6,934 bases of DNA from Acidimicrobiales bacterium (GTDB lineage Bacteria > Actinomycetota > Acidimicrobiia > Acidimicrobiales > Poriferisodaliceae). This document shows positions 535-6,934 of this stretch, piece by piece (position 1 is the stretch's first letter; each line of letters starts with the position of its first letter). The translations under genes and the position numbers were made by a program. The DNA lies in assembly GCA_020631315.1 (NCBI GenBank), contig JAHDHM010000197.1, positions 1 to 6,934 of the forward strand, in the 5' to 3' direction. The notes under the pieces are model-generated. The model made no database searches, was not told the origin of the DNA, and was given only the letters and a program-made list of their open reading frames with translations.

Positions 535-629
535 GTGCCCACAGAGCTAGGCGCCACAGCTGCTCGTCAGCGCTCAGGTCGGCGCGGTGGGGGCGCTCGC
601 GCCGTCAGGGGCGACTCAGTCGTCGATAG

Positions 630-643
630 TTGAACGTGTTCAA
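630..643. promoter_or_regulatory. Palindromic operator, TetR-family type (KstR-like motif)
   Basis: TTGAACGTGTTCAA is an inverted repeat with perfect 6-bp arms (TTGAAC/GTTCAA) around a 2-bp centre. It covers the -35 element of the promoter, so a bound repressor would block RNA polymerase. It fits the TnnAACnnGTTnnA pattern reported for KstR, the TetR-family repressor of sterol and lipid catabolism genes in mycobacteria. That pattern is loose and other TetR proteins could use it. No regulator gene is encoded in the window. Confidence 0.5.
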
Positions 644-658
644 TTAATTCGGTATGGT
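630..658 (+). promoter_or_regulatory. Probable leaderless promoter of the Coq4-family gene
   Basis: A -35-like TTGAAC at 630-635 and a -10-like TATGGT at 653-658 are separated by exactly 17 bp. A start point 6-7 bases past the -10 falls on the ATG at 665, so transcription would begin at or next to the start codon. No Shine-Dalgarno sequence lies before that ATG, which agrees with a leaderless mRNA, a common actinobacterial arrangement. The local A/T richness (CAATTAATT) stands out in this GC-rich window. Inferred from sequence only. Confidence 0.55.
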
Positions 659-670
659 CATTCCATGACC
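656..670. repeat. Inverted repeat across the start codon of the Coq4-family gene
   Basis: GGTCATTCCATGACC has perfect 6-bp arms (GGTCAT/ATGACC) and a 3-base centre. The right arm contains the ATG at 665. If the message is leaderless, only the right arm is transcribed, so this would act as a DNA site (a second operator) and not as an RNA hairpin. It may be chance. Confidence 0.3.
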
Positions 671-1396
671 GACACCGTTGCCATGAAGCCACCGATCGTC
701 GACCGCGACTTCGTCGAGAAGTTCTTCTGGGCGGTGGACCGCCCGATGGAGTACTCCGTGTACCGGCTGCTGCCGCACTGGTGGCAGGCCGCACCACAGC
801 ACGCCATCGACGGCTACGCCGCGCAGCTGGCGAACCTCGAGGGCTCGGAGGAGTTCCTCCGTCAGCGCTTCATCGCCGACACCCTCACTCTCGACAGCCT
901 CGCCGACTGCGCAGAAGGCACTCTCGGAGCGGCCTACCGGTCGTTCATCCTCGACCACGGTCTCGATGCCAACCTGCTCGTGAACTACAAGGACGCCCAC
1001 GCGCAGATGGTCGCCGACGGCGTGTTCGACCGTGTGCCCGACGACCTCGGCTACGTCAGCATCCGGCTCAGCCAGATCCACGACTTCGCCCACACCATCG
1101 CCGGCTTCACGCCCGACCCCGTCGGCGAGATCAAGATGGCCGCCTTCCACCTCGCACAGCTGCGGTTCCCGTACCACTCGCTGCGCCTGGCCGTGGTCTC
1201 TGCGCACGCTGCGTTCGTGACGCCCGGCTTCATGGAGCCCGTCTTCGACGCCATCTCCATCGGATGGCTCATGGGCCGTCGGGCCAAGAACCTGCACTTC
1301 ACCCGCTGGGAAGACGAGATCAACACCCCGCTGCAGGACATCCGCGACCGTCTCGGCATCGACCGTTCGATCGACACCGACGTGAGCGTCGCCTGA
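665..1396 (+). CDS. Coq4-family protein
   Basis: A 243-residue protein of the COQ4 family. The diagnostic metal-binding motif HDxxH-x11-E is complete: H139, D140, H143 and E155 in HDFAHTIAGFTPDPVGE. The segment EGTLGAAYRSFILDHGLDANLL is also typical of the family, as is the total length (mitochondrial COQ4 is only slightly longer with its targeting peptide). In eukaryotes COQ4 belongs to the coenzyme Q assembly and is linked to a C1 modification step of the ring. Actinobacteria generally use menaquinone, so the substrate here is unknown, and I give no coq4 symbol. The ATG at 665 was chosen because it sits at the predicted transcription start of a well-spaced promoter. An in-frame GTG at 587 would place the promoter inside the gene, and ATG 683 is possible but less well placed. 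No signal peptide or clear membrane helix is seen. It is transcribed divergently from the CBS gene and upstream of the HD-GYP gene. Confidence 0.85.
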   Translation: MTDTVAMKPPIVDRDFVEKFFWAVDRPMEYSVYRLLPHWWQAAPQHAIDGYAAQLANLEGSEEFLRQRFIADTLTLDSLADCAEGTLGAAYRSFILDHGLDANLLVNYKDAHAQMVADGVFDRVPDDLGYVSIRLSQIHDFAHTIAGFTPDPVGEIKMAAFHLAQLRFPYHSLRLAVVSAHAAFVTPGFMEPVFDAISIGWLMGRRAKNLHFTRWEDEINTPLQDIRDRLGIDRSIDTDVSVA

Positions 1397-1482: not shown

Positions 1483-4400
1483 ATGCGGACGGCGTCGGGA
1501 CCCACCCAGACGACAGATGGGTCCACAACCGAACATCGATGGTCCGGGCGCCCGCGCCTCGCCCGTCTGGTACGCGTCGCCATCTCCGTCGCGCCGCTGC
1601 TGATCTCGCTCTCGTTCACCCTCGTCGTCAGCCGAGTGCTGCCTCCAGCCACGCTCGGCATGAACCGGTGGCTCTGGTGGATCGGCCTCGTGGCCATCAC
1701 GACGCTCGTGATGGCAAGAGCCGACCGGATCGTCCGGCGACTGGCTCCGCTGTCGACGCTGCTGCAACTGTCACTGGTGTTCCCCGACGAGACCCCGGAT
1801 CGCTACAAGGCGGCGATGCGATCGTTCTCGACGCGTCGAGTGCAGCAGCGGATCGACATGGTGCGATCCGCCGGCTTCACGCTCAACCCCAACGAGTCTC
1901 GATCGCAGACCATGCTCGACCTCGTTGCGATGCTGAGCGAACACGACCGACTCACCCGTGGTCATTCTGAGCGTGTACGGGGATACGCAACGGTGATCGG
2001 GCAGGAGCTCGGGTTGAGCGAGCGCGATCTCGACATGTTGCAGTGGGCCGCGCTACTGCATGACATCGGCAAGCTCACGGTGCCATCCCAGATTCTGAAC
2101 AAGGACGGGAAACCCGACGAGCGCGAGTGGAAGATCCTCCAAGGGCACCCGGCAGCAGGGATGCCCTTCGCTGCTCCGGTCATCGAGTGGCTGGGGGCGT
2201 GGTCCTCGGCCATCGGTCAGCACCACGAACGGTGGGACGGCGGCGGCTACCCCGACGGCATCGCCGGCGAAGCGATCCCACTCCCGGCGCGCATCATGGC
2301 CGTCGCTGACGCGTACGACGTGATGACCTCGTCGCGGTCCTACAAGAAGGCCTTTCCGGCCGAGGTGGCACGGCAGGAGATCGCCGCCGGCGCCGGGTCA
2401 CAGTTCTGTCCCACGGTGGCTCGTGCCTTCCTGGCCATCCCCACCTCCCGGCTCAAAGCCATCGCGGGACCGTTGTCGTGGTTGAGCAGTCTCCCTGGTG
2501 TGCGCAACGTGCCGGTCGCCGAAGTGGTCGGTACCTCAGCGACCGCAGTCAGTTCGGTGACCGCCGCCGCAGTGGTCAGTGTGACCGCGATCCCTTCGCT
2601 CGCTCCGCTTCCGGCAGCGGCAGAACCTGCGCCAACCAGCGCGACGGTGATCGAAGAACCGACGACCACCACCGCAGTACCGCCGGACTCCGCTGTCGTG
2701 GTGCCGTCGGTGCAGGCGATCACCACTTCGCTCCCGGTCGAGGCGGCGCCGCCGACCACCGCTGTGGCGAAGGCGACGCCGCCCTCACCGTCGACGACCC
2801 GCAAGGCACCGCCGTCGAGCGCCGCATCGTCATCGAGCACGACCACCACGTCGACCACGACCACCAGGTCGACCACGACCACGACCACGACCACCACCAC
2901 CCCGACCACGACCACGACGACGACCACGACCACGACGACGACCGCGCCGCCCGCTGCGCCGGTGATCGGCTCGAATCAGCTGTTCGCCGTGTCCGAAGCA
3001 GCGGAGGTCGGCAGCGCCGTCGGGCGTGTCAGTGCGAGCGACGGGGACTCACCGATCACCGGTTTCGACATCATCGACGGCAACGGCGACGGCGTCTTCG
3101 CCATCGACTCATCGGGCAACCTCACCATCGCCGACGACACGAATCTCGACTTCGAGACGACCGATGAATACTCGCTGACGGTCACGGCCACCGACGGTGC
3201 CACCACCTCCGAGGCTGCGCTTGTGGGCGTCGTCATCATCAACGCAGTCGAACCGGCTGCCGATGCCGGAGGCCCGTACACGATCGACGAGGGCGAAGCG
3301 CTCGTGCTCGACGCATCGGACTCGACCGGATCACCCACAACCTGGAACTGGGACCTCGACGGCGACGGCGAACACGACGACGCCTCCGGCATGAACCCGA
3401 CACTGAGCTGGGCGGCGCTGGTCGGACTCGGGATCGACGACGATGGCCTGTTCCCGATCTCCGTCGAGGTCGATGGCGGCGAGGATGTCGCCACGGCGTC
3501 CCTGAACGTTCGCAATGTGGCGCCGATGCTCTCGGTGACAGGGCCGTCTACGGCGAGCCTCGGGGTTCCCTACACACTCGACCTCGCTTCGGTCGACCCC
3601 GGCGACGACACCATCACGAGCTGGACCATCAACTGGGGCGACGGCACGATCGAGCAGATCGCAGGAAACCCGTCCTCCGTGACCCACGTGTACACACAAC
3701 AGGGCTTCACGTTCGCTGTGCTCGCCTCGGCGACGGATGAGGACGGCACCGTCCAACAGAACGAGCTCCTCGTCCCCAGCTTCGTCGGCGACAACGTGTA
3801 CCGGTTCGCCGCCACGACCGGAGCCTTCGTCCAGCAGTTCGCCGCAGCCGACGATGCAATCGAGGCGTTGGTCGGTCCCGACGGGAGGCTGTACGTCAGC
3901 GGTGACCAGTCCAGTGACGTGCGCAGATACGACGCGGAGACCGGAGCGTTCATCGACGTGTTCGTCGCAGCTGGCAGTGGCGGACTCGCCCGTGCCGAAG
4001 GCATGGCCTTCGGTCCCGACGGCAACCTCTACGTCGCCAACTGGGCCGGCGCCAACGTCCTGCGCTACGACGGGTCCACAGGCGCGTTCATCGACGTCTT
4101 CACGGCTGGATCACTCGACGGACCCTACGACCTCGTCTTCGGGCCTGACTCCAACCTCTACGTCTCGAGCTACAACGCGAGCTCCGTGAGTCGCTTCAAC
4201 GGCGCGACCGGCGCGTTCATCGACGTGTTCGTCGCTGCGGGAAGCGGTGGTCTGACCACGCCGGAGCAGATGGCGTTCGGGCCGGACGGTGCGCTCTACG
4301 TGACGAGCTTCGGCAGCGACGAGGTGCTCCGCTACGACGGAACGACCGGCGCGTTCATCGACGTGTTCGTCGCTGCGGGAGGCACAGCGGGCCTGCAGCA

Positions 4401-4590
4401 GCCGACGGGACTCGCGTTCGGACCGGATGGCAGCTTGTACGTGGCGGACTACGTGACCCATCGAGTCCTGCGATTCGACGCAGCGACCGGCTCGTTCATC
4501 GATGTGCACGTCGAAGCGGGCGTGGGCGGCTTCCACAACCCGGCACTGATGACGTTCTTGCCGGAACACCAGATCACCGTCGGTCCGTAG
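1483..4590 (+). CDS. Membrane HD-GYP c-di-GMP phosphodiesterase with cadherin/PKD/beta-propeller ectodomain
   Basis: A 1035-residue multidomain protein. After an Arg-rich N-terminus come two membrane helices (about 32-50 and 63-78) followed by a basic stretch (RADRIVRR), which places the next part in the cytoplasm. The HD-GYP domain (about 140-305) hydrolyses cyclic di-GMP and looks catalytically complete: H161 (GHSERVR), H193-D194 in HDIGK, H222 (GHP), HHE at 247-249, DGGGYP at 252-257 and DAYDVMTS at 276-283. A weakly hydrophobic segment (about 348-370) probably crosses the membrane again. It is followed by an Ala/Pro/Ser/Thr linker ending in a nearly pure threonine run (453-487). The likely exterior part has a cadherin-like domain (493-590, with SASDGD, LDFE and TATDG), a PKD-like domain (592-680, [18 protein letters not shown] and DLDGDG), a second PKD-like domain (681-766, INWGDG, VTHVYT) and six NHL/SMP-30-like blades (767-1030). 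No sortase motif is present. The third membrane pass is the least certain element. Ligand and partners are unknown. Confidence 0.88.
2839..2943 (+). repeat. ACG/ACC low-complexity tract encoding the threonine linker
   Basis: About 105 bp made almost wholly of ACG and ACC codons with a few TCG, AGG and CCG, encoding residues 453-487 of the HD-GYP protein, nearly all threonine. The unit is a triplet, so slippage would change linker length without breaking the frame. Such tracts in secreted actinobacterial proteins typically form extended, possibly glycosylated stalks that carry surface domains away from the membrane. Confidence 0.8.
3781..4563 (+). repeat. Six tandem propeller-blade repeats
   Basis: Six protein repeats of 41-47 residues share the pattern V-x-R-[YF]-x3-TGAFIDVF ... 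FGPDGxLYV. The TG positions fall at nucleotides 3817, 3940, 4078, 4207, 4345 and 4486. A 38-bp stretch is identical at 4205-4242 and 4343-4380 (period 138 bp), and its 23-bp core also occurs in the second blade from 3946. The first blade is divergent and the last lacks the PDGxLYV strand, as expected where the ring closes. Synonymous identity at DNA level points to recent duplication or gene conversion. Confidence 0.8.
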
Positions 4591-4610: not shown

Positions 4611-6407
4611 TCAGCGTCCCCTGGTCGCCGCGGCGATGGCCTCGATGTCGACCTTCGGTGTGCGGTCCATGGTGAGGAGGCCGTTGACCTCCTGGTACGT
4701 GTCGGTGAGCTGAGTCCAGCAGCCACCCGCCAACGCCGTCGACTGGTGAACCACCGTCCACAGCTCCCGGTAACGGCGCAACAGTTCGTCGGAGGTGCCG
4801 GCGTCGTCGTAGCCCCAGTTGGCTGCGCCGAACCGCTCGCCGCCTCCGGTGTCGGTGGCCAATGCGATGCCGCCGAACTCCGAGAGGACGACCGCCCGGC
4901 CTCCGGCACTGCGCTGATCGAGGTCGGCGGTCTTGCCGTCGGGCCGTCGACGGGTGAGCACGGCGGCAACCGATGCACCGTCACCCCATCGTTGCATGAG
5001 CACGGCTGGGTCCTGGTCGTAGTCGTGGATGCCGACGAGATCGCCGCCCACCGTCTCCCACCCGTCGTTGGCTGAGACCGGCCGTGTGCCGTCGAGCGCG
5101 ACGGTCGCATCGCGCAGTGCCGTGATGAGCGCTCGCTGCTGCGCATCGCGCTCGCACGCCGGCACACCCCACGACTCGTTGAGCGGGACCCACGCGATGA
5201 CGCTCGGATGGTTGCGATGCGCCTCGACGACGTCGACCCACTCGGACAGCAACGTCGCGGCGGTTCGGGGGCCGGGCTCGTACGCGCTCGGCATCTCGAC
5301 CCAGGTGAGCAGGCCGAGTTGGTCGGCGAGCGCGAAGTAGCGGACGTCCTCCACCTTCTGGTGCTTGCGGGCACCGTTGAAGCCGAGCTGCTTGGTGAGC
5401 TCGATGTCGCGACGCAGCGCCTCGACATCGGGAGGGGTCGCGCCGGTGTCGGGCCAGTAGCCCTGATCGAGCACGAGCCGCAGCGGATACGGCCGGCCGT
5501 TCAGCCGAAGCTGGCCGTCGCTCACGTCGACGCTGCGCAGCGCCGTGTACGACGACACGCGATCGAGTTCGCGGTCCGCGGTGAGGATCAGTTCGGCGTC
5601 GATCAGGGTCGGGGACGCCGGCCACCACACGAGCGAGAAGCGGTCATCGAAGCCGCCATCGCCGAGCGGGAACGTCCTCACGACCGTCGTGTCGGTGACG
5701 GTGATGGCGTCGTCCACGAGCAGCTGGCCTCGGGCCTCCAGCCGAACACCGAGCCGAAGGTCGGTGGGTCGCGGGCCGGCGACGGTCGCCCGCATCGTCA
5801 CCGACATGGCGTCGATGTCGGCGCTCCACGCGACGTCGGTGAGGCGGGTGGCCGGAACGCGCTCGGCCCACACGGTCTTCCAGATCCCTGTCGTGGGCGG
5901 GTACCAGATGGCGTGGGGGACGGCGTTCCAGTCCTGCTTGCCTCGTGGCACTTCGAGGTCGAGCGGGTCGTCGACGGCACGCACCACGAGGTGTGCGTCG
6001 GGTCCGAGGTGGTCGGTGACATCGGCCGAGAAGGTCGTGTACCCGCCGACATGGTGGGCGACGTGATGGGAGCCGTCCCCGTTGGTGATCCAGACGTCAG
6101 CGATCCGATCGACACCACCGAAGTGCACGAGCACGCGGTCATCAGCGGTGGGTGCGTCGAGGTCGAGCCGGCGGCGATACCAGCAGGCACGAACGAAGGC
6201 GCCCTGGAGCACGTCGGGTCCGATGCCCGACGCCGGCGTCTCTGGGGCGTACGGGACGGTGATGGTGGCGTCGAACTCGACGTCACCAGGCTGCCGCGAG
6301 GCTGCGTCCGCATCGAGGTGGAAGTCCCACTCACCATCGAGGCTCACCCAATCTCGCTGGAGGAACGGCTGGGGGTGGTGCACGTCGACGGTCATCTCGC
6401 CGTCCAT
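4611..6407 (-). CDS. Glycoside hydrolase family 2 protein (beta-galactosidase/beta-glucuronidase-like)
   Basis: A 598-residue GH2 enzyme that would cleave a terminal beta-linked sugar with retention of configuration. It has the usual three-part core: a jelly-roll sugar-binding domain (about 10-185, with SLDGEWDF and ending GIWKTVWAE, G174-W176), an immunoglobulin-like domain (about 186-290), and a TIM barrel (about 291-598) opening with LRLNGRPYPLRLVLDQGYWPD. The acid/base is E411 in LNESWG and the nucleophile is E510 in VLSEFGG, so it looks active. It lacks the extra C-terminal domains of LacZ and is closer in length to beta-glucuronidases. The substrate cannot be told from sequence. There is no signal peptide, so it is probably cytoplasmic and would act on imported oligosaccharides. 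ATG 6407 is used; ATG 6395 (M5), preceded by GGCGAG, is an equally reasonable start. No transporter or regulator gene lies next to it. It ends 20 bp from the convergent HD-GYP gene. Confidence 0.9.
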   Translation of the reverse strand: MDGEMTVDVHHPQPFLQRDWVSLDGEWDFHLDADAASRQPGDVEFDATITVPYAPETPASGIGPDVLQGAFVRACWYRRRLDLDAPTADDRVLVHFGGVDRIADVWITNGDGSHHVAHHVGGYTTFSADVTDHLGPDAHLVVRAVDDPLDLEVPRGKQDWNAVPHAIWYPPTTGIWKTVWAERVPATRLTDVAWSADIDAMSVTMRATVAGPRPTDLRLGVRLEARGQLLVDDAITVTDTTVVRTFPLGDGGFDDRFSLVWWPASPTLIDAELILTADRELDRVSSYTALRSVDVSDGQLRLNGRPYPLRLVLDQGYWPDTGATPPDVEALRRDIELTKQLGFNGARKHQKVEDVRYFALADQLGLLTWVEMPSAYEPGPRTAATLLSEWVDVVEAHRNHPSVIAWVPLNESWGVPACERDAQQRALITALRDATVALDGTRPVSANDGWETVGGDLVGIHDYDQDPAVLMQRWGDGASVAAVLTRRRPDGKTADLDQRSAGGRAVVLSEFGGIALATDTGGGERFGAANWGYDDAGTSDELLRRYRELWTVVHQSTALAGGCWTQLTDTYQEVNGLLTMDRTPKVDIEAIAAATRGR

Positions 6408-6443: not shown

Positions 6444-6470
6444 GTTGCCGCCGGATGTTCCTACCCTGGC

Positions 6471-6474
6471 AGGA
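6471..6474 (+). promoter_or_regulatory. Ribosome binding site of the antitoxin remnant
   Basis: AGGA at 6471-6474 lies 7 bases before ATG 6482, good Shine-Dalgarno spacing. It supports 6482, not the upstream in-frame ATG at 6455, as the original antitoxin start. Confidence 0.5.
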
Positions 6475-6564
6475 TTCAGCGATGGCTGTCACCAAGTGGT
6501 CGGTGAGCGTTGACGAGGAGTTCGGCGAGGTCCCGCCGAACGTCGTCGAACAGGTCGACGGTTC

Positions 6565-6895
6565 GTGGCCGTCCTGGTCCTGGACAGCGAAGCGGTCTCA
6601 GCACTCACACGCCCGCAACAGAGTGCTGAACACCACCAACTCGTCCGGTCTGCCATGCGAACCGCGCATGCCCGGAACGCCCCGGTCCGGATACCGGATA
6701 CCGGTTGTCGTGCTCGTCGAGCTGTACCGCGGGGCAGGAACCGACGAAGCGATCGACCTGCTGCTCGATCGCGGTTTCGCGCTCGTCGTGGCCACCGCCG
6801 TCCGTTTTGGGGGCGGCGCAATCGTCGCCCACGATCCCGGCGACATCTCACTCCTCGCCGCCCGCCACTCGAACGTCTCGGTGATCGCCATCTGA
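6565..6895 (+). pseudogene. PIN-domain (VapC-type) toxin pseudogene
   Basis: PIN-domain toxins are Mg-dependent ribonucleases with four conserved acidic residues. From GTG 6565 one frame reads VAVLVLDSEAVSALTRP and continues to HARNAPVRIP, a typical toxin first half with its first acidic residue (LD). At 6687-6700 the frame breaks at a duplicated 7-bp unit. The next frame continues VVVLVELYRG (second acid, E) to the TGA at 6893-6895, passing VVATAVRFGGGAIVAHDPGDISLLAARH, a typical toxin ending with the HDPGD acid. Between IDLLLDR and ALVVATAV about 30-40 residues normally present are absent, including the Asp of the usual DAFVVATA motif. Two independent lesions make this a pseudogene. It directly follows the antitoxin remnant, as expected of a vapBC pair. 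Confidence 0.72.
6687..6700 (+). repeat. 7-bp tandem duplication that frameshifts the PIN toxin
   Basis: CCGGATA occurs twice in direct tandem (6687-6693 and 6694-6700), followed by a further CCGG. Removing one copy restores a continuous toxin frame reading APVRIPVVVLVELYRG across the junction, so this duplication is the frameshifting event. Confidence 0.8.
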
Positions 6896-6934
6896 CCTCA
6901 CCACCGCTCGTGTTTGGGCGACGGGCGTTGTCTC

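Follow-up and report, generated by a model that had tools for sequence, protein, structure and literature searches.

The stretch of DNA analysed here (the window, 6,934 nucleotides from an Acidimicrobiales bacterium) carries a gene at 1483..4590 on the forward strand, whose 1035-aa product is predicted to be a transmembrane HD-GYP receptor phosphodiesterase. In this product, Pfam searches and an AF2 model revealed an HD-GYP domain, followed by a cadherin repeat, a pair of PKD domains and an NHL propeller of six blades. The preferred reading, to which a probability of roughly 0.55 is given with the coupling of head to enzyme included, is that of a receptor made of a single polypeptide. The N-terminus, the ends of a two-helix hairpin and the HD-GYP enzyme would lie on the cytoplasmic side, the third membrane segment (TM3) would take the chain out of the cell, and a Thr/Ser/Pro stalk would carry a surface head composed of cadherin, PKD, PKD and propeller domains. 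Upon binding of a ligand, of matrix or of a neighbouring cell by the head, a signal would pass via TM3, a GPLxWL segment and an FPDxxPxR linker and would alter cyclic-dinucleotide breakdown. The coupling, its direction, the ligand and a putative calcium binding of the head are what we infer.

The gene and its enzyme half

The first-pass annotation had considered that two separate genes might have been fused by an assembly artefact. This was not borne out, since two full-length relatives, each encoded on another contig, cover the enzyme half as well as the ectodomain: P0002 shares 69% identity with the former and 66% with the latter, and P0003 shares 68% and 65%, respectively. An assembly chimera is thereby ruled out.

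All parts of the protein are encoded on the forward strand, and its domains and motifs are plain in the sequence. The hairpin consists of TM1 (residues 24-52, 1552..1638; KD 2.21) and TM2 (residues 62-85, 1666..1737; KD 1.36), both modelled by AF2 as helices with block pLDDT values of 79-96 and 86-96. The FPDxxPxR motif (residues 100-107, 1780..1803) is located in the linker from TM2 to the HD-GYP domain, and F100, P101, P105 and R107 are 100% conserved in 120 aligned rows. The catalytic domain itself (HD_5, residues 149-312, 1927..2418) was recognised with 118.5 bits against a Pfam cut-off of 27.2, and PDB sequence matches and conserved metal residues agree with this. H161, H193, D194, K197, H222, H247, H248, G253, G255, Y256, P257 and D276 are identical in 120/120 rows, the alignment comprising the window protein and 119 homologues and leaving out P0054, in which the HD-GYP domain comes late. 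Among these residues, H161, H193-D194, H222, H247-H248 and D276 are those that we take to be the metal ligands of HD-GYP. The earlier description of an N-terminal HD-GYP domain with its catalytic motifs thus holds. The GPLSWL juxtamembrane segment follows at residues 329-334 (2467..2484), with G329 conserved in 100%, P330 in 98% and W333 in 82% of the 120 rows. The Asp of a QFDP motif, otherwise near-invariant, is Cys in six of the 120 rows, including the window protein (residue 309, codon 2407-2409).

Leu157 aligns with a Glu of 4mcw that is presumably the ligand of a third metal, and the column holds Leu in 93/120 rows. The absence of this Glu, the mark of the trinuclear HD-GYP subgroup, from the window protein bears on the subgroup only; a two-metal site like that of PA4781 would be expected, and the activity may differ. 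The best PDB sequence match of the enzyme is a V. cholerae 3'3'-cGAMP phosphodiesterase (E 1.4e-38), followed by the bimetallic HD-GYP protein PA4781. The same receptor may act on 3'3'-cGAMP or pGpG instead of c-di-GMP, an alternative that is otherwise compatible with the preferred reading and to which both the PDB ranking and the Leu column lend something; we regard it as unlikely. PDB match scores mirror kinship rather than substrate, and GGDEF matches over the Pfam cut-off were found in 29/29 family-bearing genomes (1 to 30 each), which is permissive evidence confined to genomes that bear the family. In three of these (G422, G539 and G637), the GGDEF match is only weak (best E 1e-11 to 1e-14). 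Such enzymes could be a source of cGAMP as well. Most likely, c-di-GMP would be the substrate of the HD-GYP half.

Past the enzyme, TM3 (residues about 348-374, 2524..2604), proposed from hydropathy, AF2 and family conservation to take the chain outside, is followed by the stalk (residues 376-490, 2608..2952), in which 44 T, 14 S and 18 P were counted in 115 aa. The head begins with the cadherin repeat (residues 501-576, 2983..3210; PF00028, E 4e-9). The first PKD-like domain (residues about 592-677, 3256..3513) was found by PKD_4 at an E of 1.7e-5, just below the cut-off, and by AF2 strands; the second PKD domain (residues 678-759, 3514..3759) matches PF18911. The six-bladed NHL-type beta-propeller (residues about 762-1034, 3766..4584) was assigned from model and sequence. 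The threonine stalk, the cadherin-like and two PKD-like domains and the six-blade propeller had all been proposed before, and each was recovered.

The neighbouring genes were also inspected. A Coq4-like protein (587-1396, forward strand; PF05019, E 6e-17) is encoded 86 bases upstream of the HD-GYP gene on the same strand. On the reverse strand lie a glycoside hydrolase of family 2, beta-glucuronidase/galactosidase-like and below the NCBIfam cut-offs (4611-6407), and a small 116-aa protein in which a single CBS domain was recognised (184-534). Overlapping short ORFs in two frames at 6455-6933 on the forward strand look by eye like one small, possibly frame-broken protein, for which Pfam gave nothing with either the listed ORFs or the separate pieces. 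The Coq4-like, GH2 and CBS genes were sought by tblastn in 10 regions around family genes and none recurred, in what was a modest test (seven genomes, two regions of about 4 kb). A conserved gene neighbourhood was therefore rejected, and this absence counts against the preferred reading.

Family extent and the third membrane segment

A search for other proteins with HD-GYP ahead of extracellular repeats, as the first-pass annotation had proposed, returned a large family, and ectodomain types could be tabulated for 41 members. Judged from sequence, the window protein is one member of a large actinobacterial family with a constant enzyme half and an exchangeable outside part. With residues 1-400 as query, 1425 proteins were found at E <= 0.001 among 7989 scored, 120 of which were listed; residues 1-353, which end before TM3, gave 4167 proteins among 7997 scored, with 120 listed and 108 of these new. 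The plan TM1-TM2-HD-GYP-TM3-variable tail recurs among the listed homologues, TM3 being defined as a 19-residue window of KD >= 1.3 within 70-145 residues after GYP: it was found in 119/120 proteins of the first set and in 102/108 additional proteins of the second. The six exceptions in the latter set comprise two proteins that stop just past HD-GYP (P0303, P0304), two that look frame-disturbed by eye (P0272, P0283), a near miss (P0274, KD 1.25) and P0257 (KD 1.16). The window protein itself carries the FPDxxPxR linker, the GPLxWL segment, TM3 at about GYP+95 and a long tail.

Generic HD-GYP proteins look different. When genomes were scanned with residues 1-389, 75 loci of 31-46% identity were obtained, mostly covering the HD-GYP core only, and these were used as controls. 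From 85 fetched loci, 69 distinct generic HD-GYP ORFs were drawn; 65/69 end within 100 aa of GYP, a TM3-type window is present in 1/69, and the FPDxxPxR motif was sought in the same ORFs and found in 0/69. Among loci drawn from genomes, 49/50 were recognised as family (L094 was not), a count that supersedes the 17/23 recognised with an earlier, stricter pattern. Of these, 46 extend for 140 aa or more past GYP, and TM3 is present in 44, with L086 and L134 reaching only 1.08 and 1.02; the remaining three recognised loci run off contig ends. The census gave the family in at least 17/396 genomes with at least 23 genes (E <= 1e-52) for the phylum of G010, and in at least 29/296 genomes with at least 35 genes (E <= 1e-60) for the class of G123. 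The two samples overlap, both containing G123, G041 and G303, and the counts are lower bounds, with at most five or seven candidates scored per genome. The source names split this one family into unrelated-looking annotations, such as tandem-95 repeat, Ig-like, pentapeptide repeat and HD domain protein.

In the window protein alone, TM3 is not striking: its hydrophobicity is moderate and the AF2 helix is of low confidence. In the family it is the rule. Among 111 members whose chains run on for 400 aa or more beyond GYP (shorter tails were left out), a KD of 1.3 is reached by 99% of TM3 windows vs 9.9% of 1038 other tail windows, and a KD of 1.6 by 59% vs 1.8%. The earlier proposal that the third hydrophobic stretch (348-370) is a membrane segment is thus strengthened by the family.

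Charges were counted on 214 of 234 proteins, the 20 that lack the linker motif or two helices being dropped. In stretches of about 15 aa, K+R averages 2.87 ahead of TM1 and 3.19 after TM2, and the TM1-TM2 loop of about 13 aa still has 1.65. Across TM3, K+R is nearly unchanged (0.61 on the enzyme side, 0.42 on the tail side), and D+E climbs from 0.11 to 1.68. In 189 proteins with tails of at least 150 aa, the tails have a median of 3.3% K+R and 11.7% D+E, and the enzyme cores 11.1% and 15.0%. This profile suggests that the enzyme is cytoplasmic and the tail outside, the immediate TM3 flanks saying little. The one-polypeptide topology put forward in the first-pass annotation is supported by TM3, by the extracellular-type domains and by most charge cues, while K+R near TM3 and the TM1-TM2 loop do not give it a clean signal. 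It would be very improbable that TM3 does not span the membrane and that the whole C-terminal part stays in the cytoplasm. The low-confidence helix, the modest hydrophobicity and the nearly equal K+R on both sides, which are what such an arrangement would have in its favour, are set against a segment conserved family-wide, tails low in K+R and domains of extracellular type. In addition, 5/16 ectodomain proteins without HD-GYP, hand-picked from 109, have a signal-like N-terminus by eye; the other 11 have none, and several of them are fragments. A topology with the enzyme inside, TM3 crossing and the tail outside is strongly indicated.

TM3 could alternatively serve as a signal peptide within the chain, with signal peptidase I cutting after the A-x-A at residues 378-380. 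The stalk would then be shed together with the propeller as a secreted adhesin, leaving two products and no direct coupling. A Pro-containing stretch with A-x-A indeed follows TM3 directly in the window protein and in the five relatives nearest to it (6/6), and the strict Pro plus A-x-A form occurs in 33/221 family members, short-tailed proteins having been set aside. Moreover, LPxTG is absent from the window protein and was found in none of 216 family proteins, again without the short-tailed ones, when their 45 C-terminal residues were searched, so that no sortase anchor for the head is apparent. A signal-peptidase motif as a family-wide trait was rejected, as the looser form was observed in 158/221 members vs 181.7 expected from shuffles. 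A lasting one-chain fusion with conserved linker motifs suits coupling better than release. Shedding of the head may occur in the window's own clade; as an account of the protein it seems improbable. A short [LIV]AF motif was seen within 45 aa after TM3 in 42/216 members vs 3.8 expected from shuffles, and is absent there from the window protein.

Exchange of the ectodomain

The ectodomain behaves differently from the enzyme half. P0001, P0004 and P0005 are 69-72% identical to the window enzyme half and gave no ectodomain match to the window protein at E <= 1e-5; their tails bear lamin-tail and Ig repeats. Conversely, in nine proteins the PKD-propeller part is 54-66% identical despite only 46-52% enzyme identity, and this part occurs also in proteins without HD-GYP. 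In 41 members scanned for domains (the window protein and every third of the 120), Big_9 was found in 32, Cadherin_5 in 28, FG-GAP_3 in 11, CshA in nine, LTD in seven and pentapeptide repeats in four. The window's own ectodomain was found in 1/29 family-bearing genomes. Genome G638 (L136-L139), which also harbours three family members, has frames open over 4694 and 5063 codons, and in each of these a single PKD-propeller match is accompanied by a second match to PKD.

A quick tree of 125 enzyme halves was built (LG+G4, SH-aLRT only, P0054 left out), with labels typed from the Pfam columns of the homologue listings. Six labels need at least 26 changes on this tree, where the least possible is five, a figure that may be inflated by proteins that are contig-end fragments. 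The propeller label, for which five rows entered the tree because the ectodomain search had found them, needs four changes, all forced by starred branches. The labels also cluster, with 26 changes vs a shuffled mean of 71.1, which suggests that exchange was repeated rather than constant. On the evidence of the sequences, the enzyme half is retained through repeated exchanges of the ectodomain.

These observations may also be accommodated by a surface adhesin on a three-helix anchor, in which the HD-GYP enzyme is constitutive or senses cytoplasmic cues only and the ectodomain attaches without signalling. The ectodomains are of adhesin type (Ig, cadherin, CshA, FG-GAP) and repeatedly exchanged, and 10/125 tree rows carry none of the five scored ectodomain classes, so that tails could be plain adhesins or spacers. 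However, an inert anchor would have no need of near-invariant linker and juxtamembrane motifs, and we doubt this explanation. Retention of the linker motifs alongside ectodomain swaps is what one would predict for a receptor whose sensors can be exchanged, which is the reading preferred here.

Relation to known systems

The HD-GYP phosphodiesterases PA4781 (4r8z), 4mcw and V-cGAP3 (5z7c) share with the window protein the HD_5 fold and the conserved metal and GYP residues. Unlike them, the window protein has a third TM and a large ectodomain after the enzyme, and Leu in the column of the third-metal Glu. Among actinobacteria, excerpts of PMC6205966 describe Streptomyces HdgA and HdgB as membrane-bound 6TM-HD-GYP proteins; they resemble the window protein in being membrane-bound but have, as described there, nothing after the enzyme. 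The same excerpts give SLUN_31535, in which a degenerate HD-GYP domain comes first and a LuxR-type DNA-binding domain follows. The partner is thus of another kind and the GYP residues are lost, yet the order indicates that an HD-GYP-first arrangement as such is not new. Passages of a review on c-di-GMP sensing describe several sensory domains on the N-terminal side of the enzyme and refer to a supplement with thousands of tabulated architectures, among which the family may be listed (PMC8846402). The family was not found described in searches of an open-access library that covered papers without such supplementary tables.

With bacterial cadherin, tandem-95 and CshA-type surface proteins, the family shares its ectodomain repertoire. 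The 109 ectodomain-matching proteins lack the HD-GYP module that the family has, and the family, the window protein included, is without LPxTG, the C-terminal mark of sortase-anchored adhesins.

Mycobacterial PknD most likely offers, by analogy, the nearest working model. Excerpts of PMC3322341 call the extracellular six-bladed propeller of this kinase a sensor and report an interaction with host laminin. PknD and, by prediction, the window protein have in common a cytoplasmic enzyme, a membrane segment and an extracellular C-terminal six-bladed NHL propeller. Sequence comparison pairs the window propeller with the PknD propeller structure 1rwi (E 1.8e-8), and the membrane segment between enzyme and propeller is indicated by hydropathy and family conservation. 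The window protein differs in that HD-GYP takes the place of the kinase, two further helices stand at the N-terminus, and the propeller is preceded by cadherin and PKD domains. A kinase domain was sought among its Pfam matches and none was found, so that it would be PknD-like in plan rather than a PknD member. With HD-GYP in the enzyme position, the output would be cyclic-dinucleotide breakdown.

To our knowledge, the route from surface contact to a second-messenger change in actinobacteria is poorly known. If the coupling is real, the window protein would provide a one-protein link from an adhesive head to a cyclic-dinucleotide hydrolase. More tentatively, and at somewhat less than even odds, the family may represent an undescribed actinobacterial class of 'enzyme-first' receptors, in which a fixed TM-TM-HD-GYP-TM chassis receives exchangeable adhesin modules and each lineage links its own kind of surface contact directly to the second-messenger pool, with no need of a partner protein. 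The natural ectodomain swaps on a near-constant chassis, for example P0002 and P0003 vs P0001, P0004 and P0005, would make this coupling directly testable.
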